The translations under genes and the position numbers were made by a program. Of a stretch of DNA of 64,000 bases, positions 45,173 through 62,194 are shown in pieces. Source of the stretch: Spirosoma aerolatum (GTDB taxonomy: Bacteria; Bacteroidota; Bacteroidia; Cytophagales; Spirosomataceae); the NCBI RefSeq assembly GCF_002056795.1, contig NZ_CP020104.1, positions 620,001 to 684,000 on the forward strand. Reading direction: 5' to 3'. Every line of letters starts with the position of its first letter. Positions within the stretch are counted from its first letter, which is position 1. Below the pieces are notes generated by a model. The model worked only from the letters and a program-made list of their open reading frames with translations, was not told the origin of the DNA and did not search any database.

Positions 45173-46651
45173 ATGAGACACCTCATTTGCGGATTCCTCC
45201 TCCTGGTATTGACAGGCTGCTCCAACAGTTTTCTGGAACTCTACCCCAAAACGACGTTAAACGAAGGGAATTTCTACCAATCGGAAGTGGAGTACATTTT
45301 ACTGGCCAATGGTTGTTACGTACCGATTCGGGATTATGAAAAGAATATTCACTGGGTGATGGCGGAGTTGATTTCCGATAACGCCAGTTTCCAGTATAAT
45401 ACCAAAACGGGCGAAGCGTCTAAAGGGGTGATTGACCAGTTCATCTTCACCTCCGACAACGTAGCCTATTCCAGCTTCTGGAACCTCTCCTACAACGGTA
45501 TAACCCGGTGCAACAAACTACTCAGCGAACTGGAAAGAACCGGTGTAAGCTGGTCAAAGATTTCCTATAAAGATCGCTGTGCCGGCGAAGCGCTGTTTTT
45601 GCGGGCCTTGTACTATTTCAATTTGGTTCGGCAGTTTGGGGGCGTGCCGCTGGTATTAACGCCCATTACGTCGCAGGAAGCGGGAAACGTGAAACGGAGT
45701 ACGGAAGAGCAGGTGTATACCAGTATCATCAGCGACCTCAAGCAGGCGGCTACCCATTTTGCCAGCGCCAGGGATGTGGAAGAGGTGGGCCGCGCTAATG
45801 AAATGGCGGCTTTGGCCATGCTGGGTAAGGTGTATCTGACCCGACTTAATTATGCCGAGGCCGAACAGGTGCTAAAATCGGTGATTATGGCGGGGAAATA
45901 TAGCCTGCAACCCAACTATGCTGACGTTTTTAACCCAGCCAGTAAGGATTACAAAGAAACACTTTTTGCCATTCAGTACTCCGAAAGCAGCGCTGATCTG
46001 GCGAGTCGGTTCATTTTCTGGTTTGCGCCCAACACTTCGGGCGGGGAGATAACCAAACGCCCGAATATCAGTGTCGTTGGATCGGGGTGGAATCAGCCCA
46101 CGCAGGATTTGATAAACGCATTCGAAGCGGGTGATAAACGAAAAGACGTCTCCATCGGATTCTGGAAAGGTGTCGACTGGGATTCTCAGATTCGTTCCAT
46201 ACCCTATTGTGCCAAATACAAACCACCTATTTCGGCTCCCGACGATCGATGTAGCGATAATCTGCCCGTTTTGCGCTATTCCGATGTACTGTTGATGTAT
46301 GCCGAAACGCTTAATGAACTCGGTAGGACGAGCGAAGCGCTTCCCTACGTGCAGCAGGTTCGTACCCGAGCGGGTTTGGTAAATTCCCTGGCTGGCCTGG
46401 ATAAGACAGCACTGCAAACCCTGATTGCCAAAGAACGGCAGGTTGAATTCTGTTTTGAAAATCAGCGCTGGTATGACTTAAAACGAACGGGAAAAGCGAT
46501 TGAGGTGATGACTGCCCATGGCAAACGGGAGAAATCGCTTAAATCGTTCTTGTATCCTGAAGCATACGCTATTACGCCCGCCAAACTAGTAGCGCCCATT
46601 CCGAATACGGAGGTTTCTATCAATAAAATTGAGCAGAATCCTGGCTATTAA
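45173..46651 (+). CDS. SusD/RagB family nutrient-binding lipoprotein
   Basis: 492 residues. Lipobox LLLVLTGC with Cys at residue 16. SusD features: FYQSEVEYILLANGCYVPIR, EALFLRALYYFNLVRQFGGV, ADVFNPASKDYKETLFAIQY, VLRYSDVLLMYAETLNELGR, and EFCFENQRWYDLKRTGKAIE. It is 46 bases after SusC. It should bind the same glycan as that transporter. Downstream sulfatases suggest a sulfated ligand. Confidence 0.92.
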   Translation: MRHLICGFLLLVLTGCSNSFLELYPKTTLNEGNFYQSEVEYILLANGCYVPIRDYEKNIHWVMAELISDNASFQYNTKTGEASKGVIDQFIFTSDNVAYSSFWNLSYNGITRCNKLLSELERTGVSWSKISYKDRCAGEALFLRALYYFNLVRQFGGVPLVLTPITSQEAGNVKRSTEEQVYTSIISDLKQAATHFASARDVEEVGRANEMAALAMLGKVYLTRLNYAEAEQVLKSVIMAGKYSLQPNYADVFNPASKDYKETLFAIQYSESSADLASRFIFWFAPNTSGGEITKRPNISVVGSGWNQPTQDLINAFEAGDKRKDVSIGFWKGVDWDSQIRSIPYCAKYKPPISAPDDRCSDNLPVLRYSDVLLMYAETLNELGRTSEALPYVQQVRTRAGLVNSLAGLDKTALQTLIAKERQVEFCFENQRWYDLKRTGKAIEVMTAHGKREKSLKSFLYPEAYAITPAKLVAPIPNTEVSINKIEQNPGY

Positions 46652-46671
46652 CCCAACTAATATTTAGCATC

Positions 46672-48072
46672 TTGAAACCATTCCTTTTCTTACTAGTCGC
46701 CGGAATCGTAGCCATCGGCTTTCGACCGATGGACCGTTGTTCAGCTAAGCTGCCCACAGCTCCCAATATTATATTCTTGCTGGCCGACGACCAGCGATGG
46801 GATGCGCTTGGGGTGGCAGGGAATACCATCATCCAAACCCCTAACCTCGACCGACTGGCCCGCGATGGATTTTATTTCCGCCGTTCCTATGTGACGACTC
46901 CCATCTGTGCCATTAGCCGGGCCAGCATCTTTAGCGGACAATACGCCCGCCGTCATGGGATCATCGATTTTGCCACCCCGTTTACCGATTCTGCGTTGGC
47001 TAATACCTATCCTATGTTGTTGAAAAAAGCAGGCTATCGAATCGGATTTATTGGCAAATATGGGGTTGGTAACAAAATGCCGACCGAAGCCTATGACTAC
47101 TGGCGTGGCTTCGGAGGACAAGGTAATTATGCTGCGAAGGACGCCCAGGGCCAGCCGATTCATCTGACCGATTTGATGGGCCAGCAAATGGAGGAGTTCC
47201 TCCAGGCCAACCCTCAGGGCAAGCCGTTTTGCCTTTCGGTGAGCTTTAAGGCTCCCCACGCCCAGGATGCAGCTAATCCCGAATTTCCCTATGCCGACCG
47301 TTTCGGAAAACTCTACACTGACAAAACCATAAAACGCCCTGTTCTGGCTCAGGATAAATATTATCGGCAATTTCCGGAGTGGTTTCGGCATAACGACAAG
47401 AACGAGTCCCGCATTCGCTGGAGCCGCCGATTTGCGACCGATTCGCTATTTCAGCAAACCACCAAATCCTACAATCGGCTGATTACCGGGGTAGATGATG
47501 TGGTGGGGCAGCTCCGTCGTTCGTTGCAGCAGCGTGGCTTATCAGAAAATACGATCATCGTCTATACGAGCGACAATGGTTTTTACGAAGGTGAGTATGG
47601 CTTTGCCGATAAATGGTATGGCCATGAGTTATCGATTCGGGTACCGCTGATCATCTACGATCCTAGGCAACAAGCCTGGCACGGACGAACTACGGACCAG
47701 TATACGCTTAACATTGATATTGCGCCAACCCTGCTAACGTTTGCGGGGGTGTCGGTACCAGCCAGAATGCAGGGCCATACGCTGACCCAATTGATGGATA
47801 CCCCCGCAACTCCCTGGCGAAAAGAATTCTATTTCGAGCATCCGATTAATATTCCGGCTGTATTTATTCCGCAATCGGAAGGAGTATTGAGTGCTGATCG
47901 GAAATACGTTCACTATTATAACGTTCGGGAACCTGCCGATACCTACGAAGAAGTCTATGACCTGAAAGCCGATCCGAAGGAACTTGTCAATCTGGCGGCT
48001 CAGCCGCAGGGAAAGGCTCTGAAGACAACGTTACTGCCCATCTTTGAGCGACTAAAAGAGGCCGCCCGATAA
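46672..48072 (+). CDS. Sulfatase (S1 family)
   Basis: 466 residues with signal sequence (PFLFLLVAGIVAIGF), starting at a TTG 20 bases after SusD. The metal site is NIIFLLADDQRWDALG. The formylglycine motif is CAISRASIFSGQYARRHG, with the modified Cys but Ile instead of Pro or Ala in the third position. Further motifs: IGFIGKYGVG, VVGQLRRSLQQRG and YTSDNGFYEGEYGFADKW. It hydrolyses sulfate esters, likely on a polysaccharide. The altered third residue may affect maturation. Confidence 0.85.
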   Translation: MKPFLFLLVAGIVAIGFRPMDRCSAKLPTAPNIIFLLADDQRWDALGVAGNTIIQTPNLDRLARDGFYFRRSYVTTPICAISRASIFSGQYARRHGIIDFATPFTDSALANTYPMLLKKAGYRIGFIGKYGVGNKMPTEAYDYWRGFGGQGNYAAKDAQGQPIHLTDLMGQQMEEFLQANPQGKPFCLSVSFKAPHAQDAANPEFPYADRFGKLYTDKTIKRPVLAQDKYYRQFPEWFRHNDKNESRIRWSRRFATDSLFQQTTKSYNRLITGVDDVVGQLRRSLQQRGLSENTIIVYTSDNGFYEGEYGFADKWYGHELSIRVPLIIYDPRQQAWHGRTTDQYTLNIDIAPTLLTFAGVSVPARMQGHTLTQLMDTPATPWRKEFYFEHPINIPAVFIPQSEGVLSADRKYVHYYNVREPADTYEEVYDLKADPKELVNLAAQPQGKALKTTLLPIFERLKEAAR

Positions 48073-48087
48073 CCTGCTTATTCCGCT

Positions 48088-49557
48088 ATGAAATATTCTT
48101 TTGTTTTTGTAGGTGGTGCATTCCTGATGGGCCTGATTGCCTGGAAACCATCGTCACCCGTTAGCCGCCCAGCCGTAGTTCCCCCCAGTAGTCGCAAACC
48201 TAACATTGTGATCGTAATGGCCGACCAATGGCGGGCTCAGGATATTGGCTATGCAGGTAATAAACAGGTGATCACTCCCAATCTGGATAAACTGGCCGGT
48301 GAGTCAGTCAATGCCCGCCTGTGCGTTGCCGAAGTGCCCGTCTGTTCGCCCACCCGGGCAAGCCTGCTGACAGGGCAACACGCTACTACCCACGGAGTAT
48401 TTTATAATGACCGACCACTTCGCAATGAAGCCGTCACGCTGGCGGAGGTATGTCAGCAAAATGGGTATCGGACGGGATTTATCGGGAAATGGCACATCAA
48501 CGGTGGAATGGACAAGAACTTCGCACCGGGGCGACTGGCGCCCATTCCGGTCGATCGGCGGCAGGGTTTCGAGTATTGGCGTGCTCTGGAATGTACCCAC
48601 GATTATAACAATTCGCCTTACTACAATGAAGTAAACAAGCGGTTTGTCTGGCAACAATACGACGCCATCAGCCAGACCGATTCGGCCATTTCGTTCATGA
48701 CTCAACCCCGCGATAAGCCTTTCCTGCTGGTACTGGCCTGGGGCCCACCGCATGATCCTTACCAGACAGCTCCGAAGGAATATCGCCAGAAATACGCCAA
48801 TCAAACCATCCAGTTGCGCCCAAATGTACCAGTTAAGGATACTATGGAAGCCAACCGGGCTTTAAAAGGCTATTACGCCCATATCAACGCGCTCGACGAT
48901 TGCATTGGTCGGTTGCAGGCTGCCCTGAAACAAGCCAAACTGGAGGATAATACCATCTTTGTGTTCACGTCCGATCACGGCGACATGCTGTATTCGCACG
49001 ATCAGATCAACAAACAAAAACCCTGGGATGAATCCATTCGCATCCCTTTCCTGCTCAAATACCCCGCCGGACTGAGCCGCAAAGGCAGCACGCTCGACGT
49101 CCCCGTTACTTTAACCGATGTAATGCCGACTTTACTGTCGATGACCGGACAGAAAATTCCTGCCAGTGTGGAAGGGCATGATTTTGCGGCTCTCTTCCGA
49201 AATCCGCGTGCACCTCGTCCTGATGATGCAGCCCTGATTGCCTGTATTGTTCCCTTCCACCAATGGAATTACGCACGGGGTGGGCGCGAGTATCGCGGTA
49301 TTCGTACAGCCCGGTACACGTATGTACGGGATCTGAATGGTCCATGGCTATTGTATGACAATCTGAAAGACCCGTATCAATTGACAAATTTGGTCGATCA
49401 GTCAGGTATGGCCCAGACCAAACAGCAACTGGAGACAATACTGACGCAAAAACTTCGGGATGCGAACGACAGTTTTTCACCCGGTAATATTTACATGGAC
49501 AAATGGCACTACCCCTGGGCCTCCATTGATTCAGTAGGTAATCCGTATTATAAATAG
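48088..49557 (+). CDS. Sulfatase (S1 family)
   Basis: 489 residues, starting 15 bases after the first sulfatase. N-terminal hydrophobic signal (SFVFVGGAFLMGLIAW). Metal site NIVIVMADQWRAQDIG, formylglycine motif CSPTRASLLTGQHATTHG with the canonical C-x-P-T-R, then IGKWHINGGMD and FTSDHGDMLYSH. Both sulfatases need the anaerobic or aerobic formylglycine-generating enzyme, which is not encoded in this window. Together with SusCD they form a sulfated-glycan utilisation locus. Confidence 0.88.
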   Translation: MKYSFVFVGGAFLMGLIAWKPSSPVSRPAVVPPSSRKPNIVIVMADQWRAQDIGYAGNKQVITPNLDKLAGESVNARLCVAEVPVCSPTRASLLTGQHATTHGVFYNDRPLRNEAVTLAEVCQQNGYRTGFIGKWHINGGMDKNFAPGRLAPIPVDRRQGFEYWRALECTHDYNNSPYYNEVNKRFVWQQYDAISQTDSAISFMTQPRDKPFLLVLAWGPPHDPYQTAPKEYRQKYANQTIQLRPNVPVKDTMEANRALKGYYAHINALDDCIGRLQAALKQAKLEDNTIFVFTSDHGDMLYSHDQINKQKPWDESIRIPFLLKYPAGLSRKGSTLDVPVTLTDVMPTLLSMTGQKIPASVEGHDFAALFRNPRAPRPDDAALIACIVPFHQWNYARGGREYRGIRTARYTYVRDLNGPWLLYDNLKDPYQLTNLVDQSGMAQTKQQLETILTQKLRDANDSFSPGNIYMDKWHYPWASIDSVGNPYYK

Positions 49558-49797: not shown

Positions 49798-49818
49798 TAT
49801 ATTTGCTACATTGTTGCA
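49798..49818 (+). promoter_or_regulatory. -7 box and predicted Zur-type operator of the His-rich lipoprotein
   Basis: TATATTTG at 49798-49805 is an exact TAnnTTTG box. The 15-mer TGCTACATTGTTGCA at 49804-49818 overlaps it and covers the expected transcription start. It matches the operators at 55.4 and 59.4 kb (13 or more of 15 to the consensus TGCAACAATGTTGCA). A -33 TTG at the ideal spacing is not seen. Confidence 0.55.
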
Positions 49819-49838
49819 TTTGGCAAACTTATACATAC

Positions 49839-50333
49839 ATGAAGCGACTTTTTTCTTATCTGACTGCCGTTGCGTTGGTTATTGCCATTTTGGTCGGTTG
49901 TCAATCAAACAATAAATCGGGCGAATCGCATCAGACGCTGATAGCTCAGCACGACTCACTCGAAGCCAGTCATCAGCAATTGGAAGCGACCCATCACCAG
50001 ATGGAAGGCGAACATGAAAAAATGAAAGCGGCTCATGACGCCTTACCCGAGAGCTTTACCCAGCATGCAGCTATCGAAGCCAAACACGAAAAACTGCTGG
50101 TCGAACATGCCCAGATCATAGCGAAACATGAGGCAATGATGAAGGAGCACGCCGAACTGGAAGCTAAACATGAGAAAGGTGAAGTGTCGGACGAACAGAT
50201 GATAAAAGATCATGAGCGTATGAAGGCCGAAGACGAGCAGATGATGCAGGACGATAAGCGCATGATTGACGAGGAAGCTCAGATGATCAAAGACCACGAA
50301 AAGATGATGGCTGAGCACCGCAAGAAGCAGTAA
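49839..50333 (+). CDS. His- and Glu-rich coiled-coil lipoprotein
   Basis: 164 residues. The ATG at 49839 begins a lipoprotein signal (LFSYLTAVALVIAILVGC, Cys near residue 21); the longer frame upstream lacks a signal start. The mature part is a near-continuous helix of His, Glu, Lys and Met in a rough seven-residue repeat (for example ASHQQLEATHHQMEGEHEKM and HEAMMKEHAELEAKHEKGE). It could bind metal ions through its many His, Glu and Asp residues. No known family is recognised. It has a predicted Zur-type operator at its promoter. Confidence 0.7.
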   Translation: MKRLFSYLTAVALVIAILVGCQSNNKSGESHQTLIAQHDSLEASHQQLEATHHQMEGEHEKMKAAHDALPESFTQHAAIEAKHEKLLVEHAQIIAKHEAMMKEHAELEAKHEKGEVSDEQMIKDHERMKAEDEQMMQDDKRMIDEEAQMIKDHEKMMAEHRKKQ

Positions 50334-50350
50334 CGTTCTGGCTCTATGAC

Positions 50351-50396
50351 CAACCAAAAACGGACGACCATCAATCAGGTCGTCCGTTTTTGGTTG
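50351..50396. terminator. 19-bp perfect bidirectional terminator
   Basis: Arms 50351-50369 and 50378-50396 are perfect complements with an 8-base loop. The stem starts with AAAAA and ends with TTTTT, which gives U-tracts in both directions. It separates the lipoprotein gene from the convergent DUF4625 genes. Confidence 0.8.
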
Positions 50397-50491
50397 CAAC
50401 AAAGGTACTTCACAGGTATATCGGCATATGGTAGTTCTTTCTGCATCTGGTTGAGAAAAGAATACCCGTTTGCAAACACGCCAATTCACAA

Positions 50492-51319
50492 TCAATAATT
50501 GATTGTAATGGGATAATGCGGAGACACGACGTAATTGGCGCCATAGGCGTTGGTCGCTACGACGATTAGGTAATACTTGCCGGATTGCCAGGCGTTAGTA
50601 CCCGTGATATCCTTGAACATGTCCTTAGCCGCCCCAACGGTGATATTGGCGTCAAACGGGTAGGCCATCGTGGGCGTTTTAAAATCGTACCCCAGGGCCA
50701 GTGAAATCGAGTTTGTCGAGTTTAGACTGGTGTCGCTTATTTTTTGATCCTCCCGAAGCAGGCCCACGTAAACGATACCAATTCCTTTGTCTTCGGTAAC
50801 CGTACCTTTTATCGAAATAACATCGCCTTTCTTAAAGGTTGCGCCGTTGGCAGGGGCAGCGGTAACGGTAATGACCGGGGGCGTAAAATCACTCAGGGAC
50901 AAAATCTCGAGATCTTTTTTTACCTCCGTTACTCCGCCTTTAGTATCCTTTACCAGCATCGTAAAATCGTACATGCCTGTACCTGCGGTAACCGGTATAA
51001 TGATGTGCTCATGGAACGTAGTATTCTTGACATTGGCATACACGCCTGTATAGGTCGTGTCCTTTTGCCATTTCGAGGCATACGTTACATTGCTTTTCTG
51101 CGTAATCTTCACCTGAATGTTACTGATCGTATTGACAGCTACCAGCTCGGACGCAATATGGATGTCTTTACCGGCGTAGGCCTGCTGGCTGTTGGAGGTG
51201 CCCAGCTCAAACGTCTTCACTTCAGGTTTAACAAGATCAGCAGGCTCTTCCTTTTCGCAGGAGAACAGCACCGATGCCGAAAGGGCAATCGCCAGAAAGG
51301 GGAATTTAGTCAACTTCAT
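50492..51319 (-). CDS. DUF4625-type lipoprotein, third in the receptor operon
   Basis: 275 residues. Lipoprotein signal LAIALSASVLFSC with Cys at residue 21. The N-terminal half matches the DUF4625 pattern found in Bacteroidota: VKTFELGTSNSQQAYAGKDI, HIASELVAVNTISNIQVKIT, TFHEHIIIPVTAGTGMYDFT. The second half is a further beta-sandwich (PPVITVTAAPANGATFKKGD). It is the last gene after the TonB receptor. Function of DUF4625 is unknown; location next to a metal-type receptor suggests surface metal or metallophore capture. Confidence 0.7.
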   Translation of the reverse strand: MKLTKFPFLAIALSASVLFSCEKEEPADLVKPEVKTFELGTSNSQQAYAGKDIHIASELVAVNTISNIQVKITQKSNVTYASKWQKDTTYTGVYANVKNTTFHEHIIIPVTAGTGMYDFTMLVKDTKGGVTEVKKDLEILSLSDFTPPVITVTAAPANGATFKKGDVISIKGTVTEDKGIGIVYVGLLREDQKISDTSLNSTNSISLALGYDFKTPTMAYPFDANITVGAAKDMFKDITGTNAWQSGKYYLIVVATNAYGANYVVSPHYPITINY

Positions 51320-51354
51320 GAGTATAAAAATTGGGATGAGTTACTATTGTGTAT

Positions 51355-51840
51355 TTACTTGATTTTGATGCTCAGGCCTTTGATGGTCTGCCAGCCTTCC
51401 TTGTCGGTCAGCCGGATCAGGAAATGATAATCGCCCGGATCTACGTCGGCGGGCACCTGAATGGCTTGCTGAACGGCGTAGGTCTTCAAATTGGCCGGAA
51501 TGGGGTACGTCTGAATGAGCAGAAAGGGTTTTACTGGGGTTTTCACCGGGTCCAGGTTGCAGGTTTCGATCTCCGTACTGTGATTATGATGATCGAAGTT
51601 GTTGTGAATATCCACACTCACCGAGCCCAGCTGGGCGTTGTCGCTCAGCTGCGCCTGGAACATAAACGTTCCGCCCCGGTTGACGGTGCTACAACCCTTG
51701 GGAAAGGCCGTGGCACTCGTAATGTCGATTACCGGATATTCGGTATCGGGGGTTATTTCATTCTCCTTACTACAGCCGCCAAGCAACAGCAAAGTGCCTA
51801 AAACAACCGTCACGGAAAAGCTTCTGGTTTTCATATGCAT
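51355..51840 (-). CDS. DUF4625-type lipoprotein, second in the receptor operon
   Basis: 161 residues, the shortest of the three. Signal with lipobox VVLGTLLLLGGC (Cys near residue 22). Mature part: VIDITSATAFPKGCSTVNRG, GSVSVDIHNNFDHHNHSTEI, then DPGDYHFLIRLTDKEG. The sequence NFDHHNHSTE has four His within ten residues and lies where the DUF4625 family often has a metal-like site. A second ATG two codons in (51834) could also be the start. 35 bases upstream of the next DUF4625 gene. Confidence 0.68.
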   Translation of the reverse strand: MHMKTRSFSVTVVLGTLLLLGGCSKENEITPDTEYPVIDITSATAFPKGCSTVNRGGTFMFQAQLSDNAQLGSVSVDIHNNFDHHNHSTEIETCNLDPVKTPVKPFLLIQTYPIPANLKTYAVQQAIQVPADVDPGDYHFLIRLTDKEGWQTIKGLSIKIK

Positions 51841-51939
51841 TAGAAAATGGCTTGGTTTTGCTGCCCAATAGTGGCAGAGCCAGGTCGTTTGGATTCGGGG
51901 AAGCAGGTTTGCCGGCTATGGCAAACCTGCGTTGACGGC

Positions 51940-52896
51940 CTACTTAATCTCAACAGGAACTTCGATGTACTGGAAGAAGCTCATGTTGTAGGTCGTGTTT
52001 TTATAGATCACCCCATAATAATACGTACCTGATTCCCAGGCTTTAGCACCGCTGACCGGGCTGGGCGATGGCGTATTGTTGTCATTGGCGGCTCCGATGG
52101 CAAAAGCCGGGAAGACGCGGATCGGTTTAAACGACACCAGATCAAACGTAGCATTAGAAAAATCGCCTACCGTTGCCATGCCTTTGTGCTCGAGGACATC
52201 ATAGACAATGGCTTTGCTGAAGTCAATTTTATCGATTGACTCGGGGCGGTGGTTATGCTTCTTGTTGATTAACAGCAGGTACATCTTACCATCACCTTTC
52301 ACTCCGGAGATGGTGGCCTGCGTTTTGATCGTGTCCCCTTTTATTAATGCCTGACCTGGCGTGATGAAGGCTCCATTGCGGTAATACCGTGCGTTGTTAC
52401 GGTAGGTAAGAAAAATCGAGAGAACAGGGTTAACGGGCAGATTTTTCTCCAGGTAGAGAGCAACATTCCGTTTCTCTTCCAGCTTAGTACCGTTCTGATC
52501 CTTAACAATAATCAGAAAGTCATACTTGCCTTCGGGTGCGTCGGCTGGAATATCAAAGTGCTTATGCACCGTGGCATTTTTGACACCCTGATAGCTGTCG
52601 GTCCAGGTGATCTCATGTTGCCAGGCTTTGGCGTAGGTTTCTCCGGCCTTTGGTAGAATTTTAATTTGTACGTTTTCGATCTTGTCGCCGGCCAATACTT
52701 CGACGTTCAAATGAAAATCTTTGCCAATCACCCCGATTTCGTTGTTGCCCAGACCAATCTCCACATTGGAAACCGTCGGTATGGGCAGCGCGGGTTCTTC
52801 GTCTTTTTTACAGGCGGTAAAGGTGGCGGCACAAAGCAGAAAGGCAAAAATGGTGCGGCTTAGGTGGGCAAATCGTTGGTTGACTTGTCGATTCAT
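51940..52896 (-). CDS. DUF4625-type lipoprotein, first in the receptor operon
   Basis: 318 residues, starting 19 bases after the receptor stop. Lipobox AATFTACKKDEE (Cys near residue 29). The DUF4625 domain reads VSNVEIGLGNNEIGVIGKDF, then KNATVHKHFDIPADAPEGKY, with the conserved strand VHKHFDIP. The C-terminal half (IFLTYRNNARYYRNGAFITP to YIEVPVEIK) is a second beta domain with KKHNHRPES, another His-rich loop. The three lipoproteins form an apparent family expansion behind one receptor. Confidence 0.72.
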   Translation of the reverse strand: MNRQVNQRFAHLSRTIFAFLLCAATFTACKKDEEPALPIPTVSNVEIGLGNNEIGVIGKDFHLNVEVLAGDKIENVQIKILPKAGETYAKAWQHEITWTDSYQGVKNATVHKHFDIPADAPEGKYDFLIIVKDQNGTKLEEKRNVALYLEKNLPVNPVLSIFLTYRNNARYYRNGAFITPGQALIKGDTIKTQATISGVKGDGKMYLLLINKKHNHRPESIDKIDFSKAIVYDVLEHKGMATVGDFSNATFDLVSFKPIRVFPAFAIGAANDNNTPSPSPVSGAKAWESGTYYYGVIYKNTTYNMSFFQYIEVPVEIK

Positions 52897-52915
52897 GGTT
52901 GTACTGATTACTAGT

Positions 52916-55342
52916 TTATTTTAATTTGGTTGTAAGCAATGAGAAGGGGATGGTAAGCGACAGAATGATGTTCCGCCCGGCTTCGGGTAGTTCAATCAAC
53001 CGGTAGAAGCTGGTGTGGTTAAAATACCTGGTGTTGAGCAGGTTTTGCGCCTGGAGGCTGATCCTGACCGGCTGGCTATACAAATGCAGGTGCGTACCAG
53101 CCTGTAGATTGATCACGCCATATCCCGGCGTTTTCTTCTCAGGTGGCACAATCCGGTTCTGGGCAGCCGACAACCGGTAGTCTACTGAGAAATACGTGTT
53201 GTGTACCTTACCGCTAAGGGTAGGCGACCAGGTCAGGTTGAACAATACTGAGGCCGGGGGCGAAAACGGAAGTGTATAGCCCTGCTTCTCGCCCGATAGC
53301 TGCCGGGCATACACGTATTCGCCCAGTAACTCCGTGCTAAGGGTACTGAGTAACCTGTATTTCAGCTGGATTTCCCCGCCATAGCGCATAACCCGGCTTT
53401 GTGCATAATGAAACACCTGGTTTCCCGCTCCGTAAAAGTAGTCGTGCTGGGCCGTGGGATTCAGGTAGATGTAATTAGGGAAGTAGTTGTAAAATGGACT
53501 GAGCTGCACCGTTACCTTACTGGTAGTCACACTTACGCTCAGGTCAGCCTGGTAAGACTGCTCCGGGGAAAGCGTTGGATCACCCCGCTCGTAGCTGAAA
53601 TAATGGTAGTTGACCCCGTTGGCTGATAGCTCTTTGGCAATGGGCATTCGAAAGCTCTTACCCAGGTTCGCTTTGAGGGCAAACGTTTCCCGGTTGTAGT
53701 TTACCCCTACCGACCAGACCATACTCCGAAACGTGCGGGTAAGTTCTTCGGCGCGGTTCAATCGCTGTGAAACGGTCGTGGTACCGGTCGTCACCGTTGA
53801 GGGGAACCAGTCGGTATAGGGCAACAGGTGAATCTGACCGTAGTCGAACCGGAGCGCCCCGTGCAGCACCAGTTGGTCGCTGAGCCGTACTTTATCGTAC
53901 CCAAACACGCCCGATGTCGTTTGCGTAAAGGCGGGTACCAGAAAACTCCAGCCCCCGATCCGGTTCTGCTGCCGCTCGCCCGTAAACCCCACGGTCAGCG
54001 TGTGCCGGCCCAGACTCAGCTCGTCGCGTCCGTTGATGGAATACACGTGTTTGTCGAACTGACGCTCCAGGGTAGGGGAAATTGCCAGCGTGTCGGGGTA
54101 GACTGGCGGCATATAGCCGTGGTTGACATACTGACTGAATTCCTGCCGAAAATTATGCTGGTAGCCCAGTTCCAGCGACAGTCGGTGGTTTCCCTTAGTA
54201 TACTCGCTTCGGTTGATGAGCTTGTCATGGGCTACCTGCTGGCTGGGCATCAGTATATCCCGATCCGAGCGGTCGTGTAATTCGCGATCTACCCGACGGG
54301 GTTCCAGCCCGTGCGCATTGGCAAAAAAACCGCTTTGGCTATAGGTATGGCTGACGTAAACGATGGAGCTGAAATGATCGTTGAGGTAACCCATGTTCAG
54401 GTGCATCCCGGTTTCACGTCCGGCCGTGTTGCGCAGGCGTTTTTTGTCCAGGTCAACGGCATAGTCATACACGTATACCCGGTCGGTCGGCACGCGGTAG
54501 TCGCCGTAGCGCTGTCCGGTGAACCGCGCATCAACGAACCAGCGCTGTGTGCGGCCAAACAGATTGATCGATGTACCGTAGAGATTATTGTTGGTTTTTC
54601 CGATTAGATCGACCGAGCCGCCTAGCGTGTGCGGGGCCGGTGACGGAACGGGTTTTACGTCGATGGCCCCACCGATTGCGTCCGAACCGTACAGAAACGA
54701 GGCTGCTCCTTTTAGCAACTGCACCTCGCCGGCGGCAAACTGATCGAGTTCCAGTCCGTGGTCAGCCCCCCACTGCTGCCCTTCGTGTTTTACACCTTTA
54801 TCCACAACGACTATCCGGTTAAACCCCATCCCCCGAATCAGAGGCTTCGACTGCCCCGACCCGATGCCGATCGTTTTGACCCCTGGTAAGCGTTCCAGCG
54901 ATTTCATCAGGCTTCCGCCCAAGTAGCGCTGAATAAAGTCTGGGTTGACCACTTCCAGATTAAGCGACTCATCCCGTTTTCGGGCCTGGGTGTAATCGCC
55001 TTTCACAACTACTTCCCCAAGTTGCGTTTGGGCAGGTCGAAGAATCAGTGGAATAACGACATGACTTCGCCGAATGGTAACGGAAAAGCTAAGCGTTTGA
55101 TAGTCAGATAGCTCCGTAGTTAACTGGTAAAACCCCGGAGACAAGTCTATAAACTGAAACGCGCCCGTTGAATCCGTCAGCGTCGATAATGACCGGTTGG
55201 CGAGAGTCAGCCTGACGCCGACTATTGGCTGCTGCTTGGTATCCAGCACCTGCCCCGACAAGCGGTACGTTTGCGCCTGCGCCTGATTTATAAGGAGTAT
55301 AAGCCAGCCAAAAACCAGTTGTATGTAAAGCAACCGGTTCAT
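52916..55342 (-). CDS. TonB-dependent receptor, predicted metal (zinc) uptake
   Basis: 808 residues. Signal peptide (LVFGWLILLINQAQA), carboxypeptidase-like domain (LSGQVLDTKQQPIVGVRLTL), plug (ARKRDESLNLEVVNPDFIQR, SLERLPGVKTIGIGSGQSKP, GMGFNRIVVVDKGVKHEGQQ) and barrel to ILSLTIPFSLLTTKLK. The plug has GAASFLYGSDAIGGAIDVKP. No STN domain, so it is not of the SusC type. Its promoter carries two inverted copies of the shared 15-bp operator, and it leads an operon with three DUF4625 lipoproteins. Zinc specificity is inference from context. Confidence 0.85.
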   Translation of the reverse strand: MNRLLYIQLVFGWLILLINQAQAQTYRLSGQVLDTKQQPIVGVRLTLANRSLSTLTDSTGAFQFIDLSPGFYQLTTELSDYQTLSFSVTIRRSHVVIPLILRPAQTQLGEVVVKGDYTQARKRDESLNLEVVNPDFIQRYLGGSLMKSLERLPGVKTIGIGSGQSKPLIRGMGFNRIVVVDKGVKHEGQQWGADHGLELDQFAAGEVQLLKGAASFLYGSDAIGGAIDVKPVPSPAPHTLGGSVDLIGKTNNNLYGTSINLFGRTQRWFVDARFTGQRYGDYRVPTDRVYVYDYAVDLDKKRLRNTAGRETGMHLNMGYLNDHFSSIVYVSHTYSQSGFFANAHGLEPRRVDRELHDRSDRDILMPSQQVAHDKLINRSEYTKGNHRLSLELGYQHNFRQEFSQYVNHGYMPPVYPDTLAISPTLERQFDKHVYSINGRDELSLGRHTLTVGFTGERQQNRIGGWSFLVPAFTQTTSGVFGYDKVRLSDQLVLHGALRFDYGQIHLLPYTDWFPSTVTTGTTTVSQRLNRAEELTRTFRSMVWSVGVNYNRETFALKANLGKSFRMPIAKELSANGVNYHYFSYERGDPTLSPEQSYQADLSVSVTTSKVTVQLSPFYNYFPNYIYLNPTAQHDYFYGAGNQVFHYAQSRVMRYGGEIQLKYRLLSTLSTELLGEYVYARQLSGEKQGYTLPFSPPASVLFNLTWSPTLSGKVHNTYFSVDYRLSAAQNRIVPPEKKTPGYGVINLQAGTHLHLYSQPVRISLQAQNLLNTRYFNHTSFYRLIELPEAGRNIILSLTIPFSLLTTKLK

Positions 55343-55370
55343 TTACAAGTTATCAGACAGAATGAATATA

Positions 55371-55423
55371 TGCATCATTGTTGCAAATATAATCTATTCG
55401 CCTGTTTTTGCAACAATGATGCA
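55371..55423 (-). promoter_or_regulatory. Receptor promoter with two inverted Zur-type operators
   Basis: On the minus strand, TTG (55411-55413) and TATATTTG (55384-55391) are separated by 19 bases, an exact Bacteroidota promoter. The 15-mers TGCATCATTGTTGCA (55371-55385) and TGCAACAATGATGCA (55409-55423) are perfect inverse copies. One overlaps the -7 box and start, the other the -33 box. Surrounding bases extend the inverted repeat to 18 bp (55370-55387, 55407-55424). Binding of a dimer at both would block RNA polymerase. Confidence 0.65.
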
Positions 55424-55549
55424 TTTAGATTGATTACGAATGGGCCATGTTATAAGAACGCTAAACTTGTTTCAGGTACGTCAGCTATTACATGGCAGCC
55501 ACTCGTGCTGTTGAACAGCGGATCGGTACATGTAGGCGTCATCATCCCG

Positions 55550-56632
55550 TTACTCCGAGAACCCCGAATCTGCCGGGTTCGTAATCTGCCAGACAGGTTC
55601 TTTGGTAAAACACTGACGCAGCATTTTCTCGAAGCCTGCCGGTTTGAGCAACTTGCCGATAAACACAAGGCGACTAAGGCGCGGCTCGTCGTTTTCCCAG
55701 GTGGCTCCGTCGATCATCGTCAGGTTTTTGCCTACCGACTGAATAATCCAGCGTTGCGGACGGCTGGCATCGTAAATGATCCCTTTAACGCGGTAGATAC
55801 CCTTGCCCTGAAACAGTAACAGCATGGTTAGCCGGTGGTGAAGCTGGATCAGATCGAAGGATTCTCCGAAGCGGAAACTCAGCGAAACAATATCACTGTG
55901 CCGGTGATGATGGTGGCGATGCGGCAACGTACCCAGCGGACGCGGGCGGTTCGCAGGGGTTGGCGGTGAACCGGGGAAGGTTAGCCGTGGAGTCGCTTTG
56001 GCCGGTACAAAGCGGGCCGGTTGCAGAGCGATGGCCGTTTCCCGTTCGATGGCCATTAGTTCACGAATCGGGTAGTTTTCTTTCTGGCCGGTTAGTACCT
56101 GCGCGAATGGGTTAAGGCCCCGCAGCGTTTCGACCAGGCTGGCAAGGTACACGGCCGAAACCCGGTCCGTTTTGTTAATAAGCAACACGTCGCTGAAGGA
56201 AATCTGCTGGATGGCTTCTTCCGTATCGCGTAGCTGATCCTCAATGAGTTCGGCATCGACCAGGCAAATCACCCGTTTGAGCGTAAACACACGCTGCACC
56301 ATCGGTAGCATCAGAAACGGAACCGCTACGCCCGCCGGATCGCCAATACCGGTGGTTTCGATAAGCAGCTCGTCGAAACTGTCGCGCCGGTCGTAGAGAT
56401 CTTCCAGCACATCGAGCAAACTATCGTTCAGGGAGCAGCAGATGCAGCCGTCGCTCAACTCAATAATTTCTGCATCGGGCCGAAGCACAAGCTGTCCGTC
56501 AATACCTTCTTCGCCGTATTCGTTTTCGATCAGGGCAAAACGGGTTTGGGGCCGGTCGGCCATCAATGCGTTGAGTAGGGTGGTTTTGCCCGCCCCCAGA
56601 AAACCCGTTAGTAAGGTTACGTCTATTGGCAT
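55550..56632 (-). CDS. CobW/COG0523 family GTPase, predicted zinc chaperone
   Basis: 360 residues. G1 [14 protein letters not shown], the metal motif CICC ([11 protein letters not shown]), G3-like ETTGIGDP, and G4 NKTD are present. A His-rich loop [18 protein letters not shown] at about residues 235-250 separates the GTPase domain from the C-terminal CobW_C domain ([20 protein letters not shown]). COG0523 GTPases such as ZigA and ZNG1 load zinc proteins during starvation. It is 4 bases after the alkaline phosphatase gene, so co-translated with it. Confidence 0.85.
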
Positions 56633-56636
56633 GGGT

Positions 56637-58052
56637 TTATTTGGCGTCTACCGTCTGGTGGTCCACCTCAGCGGCTTTCAGCAGGAAGTTATGTAAATCC
56701 GTATTTTTAACCAGGCCCGGTAACTGCTCACTTCCCGGACCCAACATGGCCAGTTCCACAAAGTCGGCGGTATGGTCCATACCAGCCCAACCCACCGACG
56801 TATGCGCCGTTTGCAGGGCAGCTAACTGCCGATACGGAAGTTTACGTGGATTGTACACACCCGTCTCATCCAACTGGGAGTAATGCGTCAACAAGCCAGC
56901 GGCTTCATCGGCTTTAATGACAATTCCCTGCGCGGCTTCGATCCGTTCAATCAGTTGAGCGGGTGTGCTGTCTTTGGAAATTCCGGTTAGAATCCACTCA
57001 TTCGTATGCCGGAATTGCTGAATCCGGTCAAAATTAGCGTTGGCCTGCGGACCGTAGAGTAGAGCGGGATCTGAATTGCCGTGGTCCGTAGTGATGACCA
57101 CCAGTGTATTCCCGTCGCGGTCGGCGAAGTCAACGGCTACCTGCACCGCATCGTCGAACGCTAACTGATCATACAACAGGGCTCCCACGTCGTTGGCGTG
57201 CGCTCCCCAGTCTACCTTACCGCCTTCCACCTGCAACACAAACCCGTTTTTATTGGCTTGCATCCGGCTGATAGCCGTGGAAGTCATTTCGGCCAGGGTC
57301 GGAATGGTTTTTTGCAGGTCGGTATTATTGGCCCGGTCAAGCGAATACGGTAATCCATCTTCGTGAAATACGCCCAGCAGCGGCTGGCCAGCTGGTGCCC
57401 CCAACATGGCCGCGCGGGTTTGCGCCACCTGATATCCCTGCTGGCTAAACTGACTGAATAAGTCTTTTTTATCGGCTCGTTTATCGGCACTGAACTGTTC
57501 GGTACCGCCCCCCATCATCACATCGAAACGCAGACCCAGGTATTGCTCAGCAATATCGGCCATGCTGCCCCGACTTTTGCTGTTGATGCAGAAACCGGCG
57601 GGCGTAGCGTGGGTGATGGGTACGGTCGTCACGCAGCCAACCGCCTTGCCTGCCTGTTTGAATTTCTGGAGGATCGGTCGGTGAGCCTGTCCATCGGGCC
57701 CTACGTTCAGGGCCCCATTGTTGACCCGTACGCCACCGCCCCAGGCCGAGGAAGCAGCCGCCGAATCCGTAATGAGGGAGGAAGCCGAAGCCGTATCCAT
57801 CAAGGCTCGCCGTACTCGGTTGTTGCGGTATAAGCCTAACCAGTTGCTCGATCGGCCCTCTTTACGCTGCCGTAGCAGATCGGCCATATTCAGGGTACCG
57901 GTGCTCATGCCATCGCTAACCATAAAAATGATGTTCTGGGCCCGTTTGCCTTTGCTTGTTGACAAATTAGCCTCGGCAGCCCGGCCTGACCCGACCAGTG
58001 AGGTACTCAGGGCAGCGGCTGTTGTATTGCGGAAGAAATCTCGACGTTTCAT
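56637..58052 (-). CDS. Alkaline phosphatase (PhoA family), Tat-exported
   Basis: 471 residues. Twin-arginine start ([15 protein letters not shown]). Catalytic core: [30 protein letters not shown] with the nucleophile Ser after Asp, HATPAGF, and the metal ligands [32 protein letters not shown] and [15 protein letters not shown]. All residues for two zinc and one magnesium appear present. It hydrolyses phosphate monoesters in the periplasm. Its place beside a CobW GTPase and a Fur-type repressor hints at zinc delivery to this enzyme; inference. Confidence 0.88.
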
Positions 58053-58123
58053 TGATTTGGATCAGATTGCCGCAGCGGACGATCGCTGATGTGGCAGAAT
58101 ACGTTATGACTATTCGTTTAAAC

Positions 58124-58564
58124 TTATGATAATGAGGTTGTTATCGATTGATTCTGTCGGTCTGCCTGTTGCCTGCACGTGCCACAAAGCCCTTCGGCTA
58201 GCAGGTGAAGTGTATCAATCTGGTATTGACGCAGGGTATTCAGGTAGTCTTCGGGTAGGCCAGGCAGACAAGTAACCGTTTCGCATTGCGAACATTTGAA
58301 ATGGGGATGGCTGTTTGCCGACGTTACTTCGAAAAAGTACGAGCAGTTGCCATCTGAGTCGATCAATTTCTGAACGATACCAGCCTCGGTCAGTGTCAGC
58401 AAACAGCGGTATAGGCTTACCCTGTCCAACTGCTTATCAAAGGCCCGTTCCAGATCAGCATGGGTAAATGCTTTCCTGGCTTGCATCAGGAAGTGGAGCA
58501 CCGCCGTTCGGAGGGTCGTGATGCGGATACCTTTTTTGTGTAACAGTTGTTCAGCCTCAGTCAT
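58124..58564 (-). CDS. Fur-family repressor, probably Zur
   Basis: 146 residues. Winged-helix part: EQLLHKKGIRITTLRTAVLH, AFTHADLERAFDKQLDRVSL, YRCLLTLTEAGIVQKL. Metal part: the regulatory-site HPHFKCSQC with Cys-x2-Cys, and the structural CGTC near the C-terminus. Two Cys pairs are typical of zinc-structured Fur proteins. The surrounding genes (CobW, metal-type receptor, DUF3299) argue for a zinc sensor rather than Fur or PerR, but the metal is not proved. A weak 11/15 match to the shared operator lies at 58639-58653, upstream of its start. Confidence 0.78.
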   Translation of the reverse strand: MTEAEQLLHKKGIRITTLRTAVLHFLMQARKAFTHADLERAFDKQLDRVSLYRCLLTLTEAGIVQKLIDSDGNCSYFFEVTSANSHPHFKCSQCETVTCLPGLPEDYLNTLRQYQIDTLHLLAEGLCGTCRQQADRQNQSITTSLS

Positions 58565-58664
58565 ATCAGGAATAGGCTAGCACAGTAGTGGTTTGAATCG
58601 ATGTATCCGGCCTAAAAAACCGTTTTTTGTATAGAACCTGCGGTCATGTAGCAAATGGAGGTAG

Positions 58665-58868
58665 TTAATCAAAAGCACCTGGCCGGAAGGGGGGAGCATA
58701 GAATGACCAGACAAGAGTTATTAATTCCCGGCGCAAACGAGCTACGTAGGTTTGGCTGTAGGTATCGGCTTCACCCTGGTTTGCGTCCATCTGGTCCTGT
58801 GCATAACCGGGCCGTAGCAAACCGACCAGGAAAACTAACAACAGGCAGGTACGGATCAAAACGGTCAT
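58665..58868 (-). CDS. 67-residue exported protein of unknown function
   Basis: Signal peptide LIRTCLLLVFLVGLLRPGYA followed by a mature part of about 42 residues (QDQMDANQGEADTYSQTYVA onwards) with no Cys. The start ATG overlaps the stop of the upstream DUF3299-type gene by four bases (58865-58868), which shows translational coupling. Unrecognised. It should act with the DUF3299-type protein in the periplasm. Confidence 0.6.
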   Translation of the reverse strand: MTVLIRTCLLLVFLVGLLRPGYAQDQMDANQGEADTYSQTYVARLRRELITLVWSFYAPPFRPGAFD

Positions 58869-59317
58869 GAGTTGTCGGATTGCAGTTCGGCCCCGTCCAG
58901 AATGTAGTTCAACTCATAGATATTATCGGCATTCAGCCGAAGCGTGCCCGAAAAGGTACGCCGTTCGTCGGTACGAAATTTGCGCGGTAATCGCTTAAAT
59001 TTCAGGGTCATGATTGACTCAGGCCCGGCAGCTCCGCAGAAAAAGCAGGCCGCCATAGGAAACTCGGACACCACGTATAGCCCACTTTCGAGGTCGATGG
59101 GAATAACATAACCGGTGATCGAGATAGCTTTCCCGTTAAGTGCTTTCACTGTAGGGCCGAACTTAGGGTACAGCATGACCACACTTTCTTCAGGATACCA
59201 TTTTTTCTTAAACTGTACATCGCGCAGTTGTTCCCATCTAATAACCGGCGGTCCCGAAGCTACCGTCAGGCTACTCAGAAGCAGCCAGCACACTATGCTA
59301 CCTGTGATTTGTTTCAT
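58865..59317 (-). CDS. DUF3299-type periplasmic protein
   Basis: 150 residues from the ATG at 59315-59317. Signal GSIVCWLLLSSLTVASG. The mature domain matches the DUF3299/COG3495 pattern: VIRWEQLRDVQFKKKWYPEE, VKALNGKAISITGYVIPIDL, and the Cys-containing EFPMAACFFCGAAGPES. A CxxC-type pair (CFFC) is exposed. I recall such proteins beside Zur-controlled zinc uptake genes in Proteobacteria; the molecular function is unknown. It is the first gene after the 59.4-kb operator and promoter. Confidence 0.68.
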   Translation of the reverse strand: MKQITGSIVCWLLLSSLTVASGPPVIRWEQLRDVQFKKKWYPEESVVMLYPKFGPTVKALNGKAISITGYVIPIDLESGLYVVSEFPMAACFFCGAAGPESIMTLKFKRLPRKFRTDERRTFSGTLRLNADNIYELNYILDGAELQSDNS

Positions 59318-59426
59318 CGCCAACTTGTGATTTTTAACAGGTTAATCAATCAGTAAAGCATAGTTCATAGACCTTCAAGATATAAACGTCATGCCCGAAT
59401 CATTCGAACGATTTGTATCTACGAGT

Positions 59427-59456
59427 CAAAAATAGCTATTTGCAACAACGTTGCAA
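59427..59456 (-). promoter_or_regulatory. Promoter with Zur-type operator upstream of the DUF3299-type gene
   Basis: Minus-strand TTG (59454-59456), a 19-base spacer, and TATTTTTG (59427-59434) form a perfect promoter. The palindrome TGCAACAACGTTGCA at 59441-59455 lies in the spacer and overlaps the -33 box; it extends to 13-bp arms (AGCTATTTGCAAC / GTTGCAAATAGCT). The leader to the ATG is about 100 bases. Confidence 0.6.
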
Positions 59457-59796
59457 ATAGCTGCGCTATAAATTTTGTATAGACTTTTTTGTCTTACGGC
59501 TTGTTGCCGTTGAGTTCAGGCCAGCAAAGGGGTTGCTGAGGAATAGAGCGCTTGGTTGGACGAACGATGTCGCGCTTCTCGGTATTTTACCCATCAACTG
59601 AGGGTAAATCTAAAAAAAGGGACCGCACCTGTGGCCCGGTCACAAACTCAGCAAGCTTGTAAGATTTCGAGTTTGATTTGTGACCGGGCCACAGGTGCGG
59701 ATGACATTGTGAGGATCTATACCTTATGGTATGAATTCTCTGATCAGAGAATCTTTATATCTCGTGAATAGGGCGTTTAAAGAGATAGTATACACA
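59457..59796. other. Intergenic region downstream of the operator
   Basis: 340 bases without a gene. It contains the long inverted repeat at 59623-59700 and, near 59600, an A-rich stretch. Neither strand shows a recognised coding frame. Confidence 0.4.
59623..59700. repeat. 24-bp perfect inverted repeat
   Basis: Arms 59623-59646 and 59677-59700 are perfect complements with a 30-base loop that contains a further short inverted pair (AAACTC near 59645 and GAGTTT near 59670). It lies after the end of the propeller lipoprotein gene on the minus strand and may be its terminator. Confidence 0.5.
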
Positions 59797-61288: not shown

Positions 61289-62194
61289 TCACTGAAGCCG
61301 TTTCATGAAATAGTCCCAGGTGGCTTTCCCAATGTCGGCAATTAGCTTCTCATTCGTGTCTTCATTCTCTCTGGAGTCCTTTACAAAGACACTGATGAAA
61401 TAATAGCGGCCATTGGGCAAAAACACAATGCCAATGTCGTTAACGGCTGCGGTTATTCCTGCCTTGTTCGTTCCCGAAGAACCCGTTTTATGAGCCACAA
61501 TCGTTTGTTTGGGTAGCTGCCCCTTTAGTCTGGCCTGACCCGTTTGGGTGCCTTTCATCACCGTCCAGATAAAGTCGTGACTTTGGGTTGACAGCCGTTT
61601 GTTCCGGTTCACATAAAAGGTTTGCAGTACATTGACGGCGGCCCTGGGTGTTGTCCAGTTTTTAAATTGCAGGTCCCAATTCGCCTGCTGCGTTTCTTCG
61701 TTTACTTTTATGGATATATCGTTCGTGCCGCTTTGTTTGATGTAGCGCTCTACCGCTTCCGGCCCTCCGAGTAGTTTGAGCAGCAAGTCGCACCCCACGT
61801 TATCGCTTTGCGATACGGTATACGCCAGCATTTCGGATAGGTTCATCGTAGTGCCATTCGGATACTTGTCCCGAATCGGACTATACAGCTTCGGTAAGAG
61901 GTCTTTCTTTTGAATTTTGATGGGTTGATCCAACGAAAACTTGCCCTGATCGATTTGCGACAACATTGCCAGGGCAATATGAAATTTAAACACACTCTGC
62001 AACGGAAAATGCCGGTTACCGTAGATGGAGGCCGTATCTTTCCCATCGTCGCTCATTAAGGCGATGCCCACCGTGGCTTTCTTTCCGGCAACGATGTGCT
62101 GAATTTGTTGTCGTACCGAATTCAGATTTTGCGCCATCGTCTCCATAGAGACTAGGAAAACTAGGACAGCCAGAACGTGATGTCTTTTTAGCAT
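61289..62194 (-). CDS. bla: Class A beta-lactamase, A2 subclass-like
   Basis: 301 residues with a signal peptide (LAVLVFLVSMETMAQ). The class A motifs are all present: SVFK with the active-site Ser, SDN as YTVSQSDN, the Glu of the omega loop in VNEETQQANW, and KTG as AHKTGSSG. The sequence PLQSVFKFHIALAMLSQID and the SQSDNVGCDLLLKLLGG context are typical of the Bacteroidota A2 group (CfxA/PER/VEB-like). It hydrolyses beta-lactams, probably including cephalosporins; the spectrum cannot be read from sequence. It is alone, without a regulator or mobile element. Confidence 0.88.
   Translation of the reverse strand: MLKRHHVLAVLVFLVSMETMAQNLNSVRQQIQHIVAGKKATVGIALMSDDGKDTASIYGNRHFPLQSVFKFHIALAMLSQIDQGKFSLDQPIKIQKKDLLPKLYSPIRDKYPNGTTMNLSEMLAYTVSQSDNVGCDLLLKLLGGPEAVERYIKQSGTNDISIKVNEETQQANWDLQFKNWTTPRAAVNVLQTFYVNRNKRLSTQSHDFIWTVMKGTQTGQARLKGQLPKQTIVAHKTGSSGTNKAGITAAVNDIGIVFLPNGRYYFISVFVKDSRENEDTNEKLIADIGKATWDYFMKRLQ

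Follow-up and report, generated by a model that had tools for sequence, protein, structure and literature searches.

We examined a 64-kb stretch of the Spirosoma aerolatum chromosome (positions 620001-684000 of 7.96 Mb; hereafter the window) and found that a 15-bp palindrome, TGCAACAnTGTTGCA, which recurs there ahead of zinc-acquisition genes, is in all likelihood (we put the probability at about 0.85) the operator of a zinc-sensing Fur-family repressor, a zinc uptake regulator (Zur), of the Bacteroidota. Comparison between genomes supports the candidate operator, its embedding in promoters, the kind of genes behind it, its conservation and its link to a Zur-like clade of regulators, and we regard a Zur-type regulon as well supported on these grounds. 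A sequence-only reading of the window had proposed such a regulon; the clustering of the palindrome and the kind of genes it precedes bear this out. The repressor that it assigned is not supported, and its small exported partner protein is a gene fragment. The repressor had been placed at 58124-58564 of the window, in a Fur-family gene that we call FurW, but the palindrome goes with another Zur-like gene, at 7882139-7882552 of the chromosome (7.88 Mb). The finding appears to be a new, well-conserved Zur-type regulon in the Bacteroidota, and its most novel part is an unusual set of Zur paralogues found locally within it.

The putative operator is a 7-1-7 palindrome with the core TGCAACnnnGTTGCA. 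A scan of the window allowing up to two mismatches to TGCAACAATGTTGCA returned eight strand matches at four places, a number reached by none of 100 dinucleotide shuffles (mean 2.12, largest 7). When at most one mismatch to TGCAACnnnGTTGCA was allowed, exactly four places were again found, compared with a mean of 0.1 and a maximum of 2 in 100 second-order Markov simulations. The four 15-mers previously described (operators 1 to 4, Table 1) are thus confirmed, both in position and as copies of one palindrome, and operator 4 grows to a perfect 13-3-13 palindrome. The claim that each overlaps a TAnnTTTG or TTG-N19-TAnnTTTG promoter also holds. Operators 2 and 3 share one perfect TTG-N19-TATATTTG promoter reading to the TonB receptor gene, and operator 4 lies in the spacer of TTG-N19-TATTTTTG, which reads to the gene of a DUF3299-like protein. 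Operator 1 overlaps TATATTTG only, with no TTG at N18-N20 distance.

In the whole chromosome, up to two mismatches to TGCAACAATGTTGCA gave 17 places (14 forward and 14 reverse rows); a scan with the reversed 15-mer returned 1 row in the forward and 6 in the reverse direction. Ten of the 17 places fall within 669804-720621 (51 kb). The 15-mer is clustered and stands mostly ahead of one kind of gene, and the set is larger than the window shows (Table 1). Five places with two mismatches, at 2.54, 2.60, 5.61, 5.69 and 6.66 Mb, were rejected as operators and treated as chance; three are in called open reading frames (ORFs) and two precede genes with no evident link to zinc.

The site at 352377 heads a second gene row, which runs on one strand in the order palindrome, MerC, truncated DUF3299-like gene, DinB-family gene, thrS, Fur-family gene, DsrE-like gene and folE (MerC in locus L020 scores 62.5 bits against PF03203, cut-off 27.6). 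For thrS and folE there is in each case one other full match in the genome, so that the second-row copies are spares. Threonyl-tRNA synthetase (ThrS) and GTP cyclohydrolase I (FolE) are zinc enzymes. The spare copies both keep motifs that we take to be the usual zinc ligands, which speaks against the reading preferred here; their interpretation as zinc-free substitutes was rejected on that account. Paralogues of this kind, thrS2 and folE2, are listed as Zur targets of Anabaena in PMC6103462.

We determined how the palindrome sits in promoters from a context sample of 74 exact sites in 67 promoter regions of 27 genomes, drawn, among the places listed, from 53 stretches of 26 relatives plus this genome (one stretch at a contig end, G052:C639, was left out). 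Counted from the palindrome start over the 148 orientations, TAnnTTTG occurs at offset -6 in 11 and at offsets +32, +33 and +34 in 10, 9 and 4 (together 23), where 0.057 would be expected per offset. The signal at -6 is partly one of shared letters, as TAnnTT precedes 18 of the 540 TGCAAC in the same DNA, and the 11 are among these 18. With TAnnTTTG at +32, the TTG within the palindrome serves as -33 element of a TTG-N19-TAnnTTTG promoter; promoters of the Bacteroidota are of this -33/-7 type. The receptor promoter in the window combines both arrangements, -6 via operator 2 and +32 via operator 3. A palindrome lying over promoter elements would fit the need of a repressor to exclude RNA polymerase.

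Ten palindromes packed into 51 kb, and copied gene cassettes that share sequence, might also be expected if the palindromes were repeats or the ends of mobile elements and not operators. We find this scarcely credible, since the sites are only ∼15 bp long, are phased to promoters and precede non-homologous genes in several families. An origin of the 15-mers by chance or as repeats was rejected on the genome counts, the reversed-pattern control and the promoter phasing.

Conservation was assessed across 59 genomes (this one and 58 relatives). The exact core is present in 48 of them, comprising all 36 of the genus (this genome included) and 12 of the 23 outside it, with 126 copies against 15 for the reversed pattern. 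In the context sample, the first gene belongs to one of the families found beside the palindrome in this genome in 60 of 67 promoter regions (stretches as fetched). TonB receptors lead the tally with 26, followed by COG0523 and a flavoprotein (10 each), MerC (6) and the His-rich lipoprotein (4); ZIP, the ATP-binding cassette (ABC) ATPase, Lipo18, a small unassigned protein and Zur account for 2 each and the DUF3299-like protein for 1, where one region may count twice. When real and reversed-pattern sites were cut to 3 kb and judged by one rule, such a gene was found in 37 of 67 real regions (35 when TonB receptors and ABC ATPases are disregarded; the 3-kb stretches are too short to show a whole TonB receptor gene) and at 0 of 15 reversed-pattern sites. 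In these shortened stretches 8 of 67 real regions, and 12 of the 15 reversed-pattern sites, lay inside ORFs of at least 120 residues.

To which regulator does the palindrome belong? Five Fur-family genes exceed the Pfam cut-off in this genome, besides a frameshifted FurW-type copy. One of the five, the Zur-like gene at 7.88 Mb, is of a type that is far more widespread than the FurW type and is usually single-copy. With FurW as the query (E<=1e-10, FurW-type genes included) a match was obtained in 48 of the 59 genomes, and 46 of these 48 have the palindrome; of the 11 genomes without a match two have it, and both are incomplete assemblies. In a phylum sample of 296 genomes the Zur-like gene (E<=1e-6) was detected in 100, and the exact palindrome occurs in 37 of these 100 genomes but in 34 of the 196 others (p 3e-4). 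Two or more copies of the palindrome are found in 14 genomes with and 2 without the gene (p 8e-6; the gene is carried by 14 of these 16 genomes and by 86 of the 280 others).

Gene neighbourhoods in other families point to the same regulator. Among stretches picked for closeness of the palindrome and the Zur-like gene, the palindrome stands 10-51 nt before the gene in G240, G236, G230, G238 and G075 (four families, all other than that of this genome), and lies between MerC and Zur, or between MerC and a SCO1-Zur pair, in G240, G230, G238, G182, G206 and G308; in G206 and G308 it is inside the MerC ORF as called, at its 5' end. All six MerC proteins beside Zur pass PF03203 (43.5-84.4 bits, cut-off 27.6), as does a palindrome-adjacent MerC in L230 (47.1 bits). 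MerC-Zur pairs with the palindrome in the shared upstream region, in L219, L221, L222 and L225-L227, come from three families, which suggests that MerC is a zinc carrier. In G051 a single palindrome has zur, COG0523, hisI, folE and another COG0523 gene behind it on one strand; 0.9 kb separates zur from the gene that follows. As expected for Zur, the palindrome is found before zinc-acquisition genes.

FurW and the 7.88 Mb protein both have the Fur-family fold (PF01475, 43.2 and 43.3 bits, cut-off 23.1), and the structural Cys4 site, made of two CxxC motifs, is present in the 7.88 Mb protein and in all three FurW-type sequences aligned. In a 40-row tree, which came with long-branch warnings, a 100/100 split separates the Zur side, FurW-type proteins included, from the Fur/PerR-like rows. 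The recognition helix DRV[ST]xYR is found in 36 of 43 Zur-side rows, including FurW and both of its intact relatives, while all 11 Fur/PerR-like rows have SRATVYN. The sensor regions are different: that of FurW is shorter and lacks the YALC motif and the His cluster, whereas the YALC of the 7.88 Mb protein aligns with Cys88 of E. coli Zur. The sensing residues of E. coli Zur are His77, Cys88, His96 and Glu111, and a change of Cys88 to serine abolishes DNA binding (PMC4219657). It may be that FurW senses zinc differently.

One could suppose that FurW and its paralogue at 348 kb are the main zinc repressors of the window genes and that the 7.88 Mb gene serves something else. The FurW row has a palindrome of its own, which is kept in the related genome G021, two intact FurW-type copies are present in the genome, and the recognition helix of FurW is that of the Zur side. 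In one pairwise alignment, moreover, a cysteine of FurW lies opposite Cys88; in the multiple alignment it is out of register, and in the 348 kb copy this cysteine is missing. FurW-type genes occur in only 2 of the 36 genomes of the genus (this one and G021) and the palindrome in all 36, so that 34 have the palindrome without a FurW-type gene, and in other families it is genes of the 7.88 Mb kind that the palindrome adjoins. We therefore consider this alternative rather unlikely, and the assignment of the repressor role to FurW is not supported. FurW probably arose late as a copy and then diverged, and is unlikely to be the principal sensor of zinc; the general repressor is most likely, as far as comparison can tell, the Zur-like protein at 7.88 Mb.

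Several observations weigh against a zinc-sensing Zur as the regulator, or against the strength of the counts. Seven of the 67 promoter regions lack a gene of the families considered, and seven sites lie inside called ORFs of at least 120 residues. The list of families was drawn up from the palindrome neighbours in this genome, TonB receptors occur widely in the phylum, and the genomes compared, being related, do not count as independent samples. In the phylum sample, 34 of 71 palindrome-positive genomes have no detected Zur-like gene and 63 of the 100 gene-bearing ones no exact palindrome; the reversed pattern leans the opposite way (3 of 100 versus 22 of 196, p 0.015), which indicates that base composition differs between the two groups. 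For the gene at 7.88 Mb itself, the chromosome scan lists no palindrome with up to two mismatches. All Fur-family proteins tested fall below the NCBIfam cut-offs for Zur, Fur and PerR; against the Zur model NF008646 (cut-off 167 bits) FurW scores 32.7 and the 7.88 Mb protein 35.2. The best NCBIfam score and the best structure match of FurW are both PerR, and for two relatives encoded beside the palindrome the top-scoring models are likewise Fur or PerR. Such matches would be in keeping with a regulator of the Fur family whose signal is a different metal (cobalt, manganese, iron) or peroxide, the zinc genes being only part of its set, and PMC11481552 describes cobalt handling as part of the Zur response of Pseudomonas. 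We think this unlikely given targets that include ZIP, COG0523, ThrS, FolE and, in G051, HisI. The 7.88 Mb protein, in addition, is best matched by the Zur model and by structure 2o03, which is called a probable zinc uptake regulation protein, with PerR close behind.

If the palindrome is a Zur operator as we propose, a zinc-bound repressor dimer would sit on it over the -33 TTG or the -7 TAnnTTTG and exclude RNA polymerase, and on zinc starvation it would leave. The cell would then make outer-membrane receptors with their lipoproteins, inner-membrane carriers (ZIP, probably MerC, and an ABC system), zinc chaperones of the COG0523 kind and additional zinc-enzyme copies. Two gene rows of this regulon, presumably operons, and one single gene would lie in the window. 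Having the clade and recognition helix of the 7.88 Mb protein, FurW probably adds a second layer of control at these sites, and since its row has its own operator FurW is probably itself induced by zinc starvation. One could go further and picture FurW and its two copies as zinc-starvation-induced Zur paralogues with a changed sensor, which compete or pair with the main Zur at the operators they share and so set a second threshold, with the CobW protein loading the Tat-exported phosphatase of the same row; this scheme is speculative and we regard it as unlikely in full.

The operator has a precedent outside the phylum. A ZUR site predicted for Desulfovibrio in 2004, with the consensus ATGCAACnnnGTTGCAT upstream of znuABC-zur (PMC545781), has the same 12 fixed core bases as the palindrome described here, which suggests an old or shared pairing of Zur and operator. 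Desulfovibrio belongs to another phylum, however, and is described as having one znuABC-zur operon per genome, whereas the genes here are those of TonB receptors, lipoproteins, MerC, ZIP and COG0523 (znuABC was not searched for). The Zur regulons of Proteobacteria, Firmicutes, Actinobacteria and Cyanobacteria reviewed in PMC6103462 share with ours the 7-1-7 operator type, COG0523, TonB receptors, ZIP and the thrS2/folE2 paralogues, with autoregulation in some; the main text of that review mentions neither Bacteroidetes nor alkaline phosphatase. PA4063-PA4066 of Pseudomonas aeruginosa and its Vibrio counterpart are described as a Zur-controlled MacB-type ABC system (ATPase and permease) with small exported proteins (PMC11481552, PMC8561739). 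G042 resembles this arrangement: there MerC, a receptor and DUF4625 face, across a palindrome with one mismatch, an ABC pair with FtsX/MacB domains followed by a DUF3299-like gene. A difference is that the exported protein of the window is below the DUF3299 cut-off. The window receptor scores best among NCBIfam models with the zinc receptor ZnuD, though far under its cut-off (Table 1), and differs from ZnuD in having DUF4625 lipoproteins as its partners. PgFur of Porphyromonas gingivalis, a Bacteroidota Fur with a CxxC zinc site and without the usual His-rich sensor motif, is described for virulence gene control with no stated link to such a palindrome, and the likeness is one of description only (PMC6613475); a paper on Riemerella (PMC11960050) deals with ZntR. 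No described Zur regulon of the Bacteroidota was found in the open-licence literature searched. The claim that no Bacteroidota system of this composition has been described thus stands for that literature, and is qualified by the operator predicted for Desulfovibrio and by the likeness of the ABC and DUF3299-like part in G042 to PA4063-PA4066.

Table 1. Candidate operators and genes. Positions are those of the window for operators 1 to 4 and for genes, and those of the chromosome for sites outside the window.
Feature	Position	Strand	Remarks
Operator 1 (TGCTACATTGTTGCA)	49804..49818		overlaps TATATTTG; 20 nt before His-rich lipoprotein start
Operator 2	55371..55385		overlaps -7 element TATATTTG of receptor promoter, offset -6
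Operator 3	55409..55423		holds -33 TTG of receptor promoter, offset +32, TTG-N19-TATATTTG
Operator 4 (TGCAACAACGTTGCA)	59441..59455		within TTG-N19-TATTTTTG promoter of the DUF3299-like/FurW/phosphatase/CobW row
His-rich coiled-coil lipoprotein	49839..50333	+	164 residues, 16 His; no Pfam family above cut-off
DUF4625 lipoprotein a	50492..51319	-	PF15418, 89.2 bits
DUF4625 lipoprotein b	51355..51840	-	PF15418, 136.5 bits; His-rich stretch
DUF4625 lipoprotein c	51940..52896	-	PF15418, 89.2 bits
TonB-dependent receptor	52916..55342	-	best NCBIfam score ZnuD, 115.6 bits, cut-off 950
COG0523/CobW GTPase	55550..56632	-	CobW N and C domains, 157.2 and 64.5 bits; GCICC; His-rich insert
Alkaline phosphatase	56637..58052	-	PF00245, 251.7 bits, above gathering score; RR-type (Tat-like) signal peptide
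FurW, Fur-family regulator	58124..58564	-	Zur side of tree; diverged sensor region
N-terminal fragment of DinB-family protein	58665..58868	-	longer homologue at L020:5104-5685
Exported DUF3299-like protein	58865..59317	-	CFFCG invariant in five aligned relatives; below Pfam cut-off
Site outside the window	352377		before MerC
Site outside the window	704720		before His-rich lipoprotein
Sites outside the window	710736, 710797		between COG0523 GTPase and TonB receptor
Site outside the window	714966		before lipoprotein next to M43 peptidase gene
Sites outside the window	720518, 720607		between ZIP transporter and ABC ATPase gene; permease-looking gene behind (no family test)
Site outside the window	3627672		between truncated DUF3299-like gene and small protein of no assigned family

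The genes of the window had been named correctly from sequence alone, save for the small exported partner, the DUF3299 label and the repressor, which stays below the NCBIfam Zur, Fur and PerR cut-offs. All three DUF4625 lipoproteins pass the PF15418 gathering score of 27. The GTPase has both CobW domains and the GCxCC motif of COG0523 zinc metallochaperones; with the ZigA equivalog model it scores 121.6 bits, under the cut-off of 600. Behind operator 4 the DUF3299-like gene, the DinB fragment, FurW, the alkaline phosphatase and COG0523 follow each other on one strand. The order palindrome, DUF3299-like, Fur, alkaline phosphatase and COG0523 region is the same in G021 and in a Spirosomataceae metagenome-assembled genome (L196), the best of three loci returned by a profile search of a contig collection with the FurW-type alignment; L196 and G021 correspond in both position and content. 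The phosphatase and COG0523 region is 69% identical to theirs over 2.4 kb at the nucleotide level. We take the RR motif of the phosphatase signal peptide to be of the twin-arginine translocation (Tat) kind. A phosphatase with such a signal would acquire its fold and its metal before export, in the cytoplasm, and a COG0523 protein could do the loading there.

The protein called DUF3299-type is an exported, DUF3299-like protein but scores 17.3 bits against PF11736, under the gathering score of 22; of four relatives one scores 16.5 bits and three give no match. Its comparison with the PA4066 structure 4hsp gave E 0.11, and a five-sequence profile found no match to 4hsp at E<=1, so we dropped membership in DUF3299/PA4066. 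The "small exported partner" turned out to be the N-terminal fragment of a DinB-family protein that is longer in L020. No DinB gene is called in the G021/L196 row. Positions 58721-59013, covering the DinB fragment and the end of the DUF3299-like gene, are 81% identical to L020, which places the fragment in a copied cassette. A third FurW-type copy, frameshifted, lies at 718847-719250 (L018:16832-17250) with a DUF3299-like remnant alongside, and further truncated DUF3299-like genes occur at L020:5726-5941 and L021:5419-5679. Apparently the cassette was copied repeatedly and is now degenerating.

With an operator, a candidate Zur and a recurring target list in hand, the response becomes directly testable, and several families as yet unnamed gain a first functional lead. 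The recurring targets are MerC, the TonB receptor with Lipo18 or DUF4625 lipoproteins, the thioredoxin-reductase-like flavoprotein and the MacB-type ABC system. The flavoprotein (PF07992 in this genome's copy) adjoins the palindrome in ten regions (L057, L061, L076, L081, L083, L086, L091, L094, L099 and L101), of which L076 is from another family. DUF4625 was found in 7 of the 59 genomes at E<=1e-3, with 4 over the cut-off, and was rejected as a general marker: in G042 it is beside a palindrome with one mismatch, in G051 it is ∼13 kb from an exact one and in G045 there is none within 12 kb. The receptor-DUF4625 pairs of G051 and G045 have no adjoining palindrome.

A few other features of the window were noted. 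Directly to the left of operator 1, at 45173-49557, are genes for a SusD-like protein and two sulfatases (PF00884), for which the window scan listed no separate palindrome. A perfect 24-nt inverted repeat with a 30-nt loop (59623-59700), perhaps a terminator or else a small mobile element, separates operator 4 from the gene that comes next. A beta-lactamase-like protein (PF13354, 145.8 bits) is encoded on the minus strand at 61289-62194.

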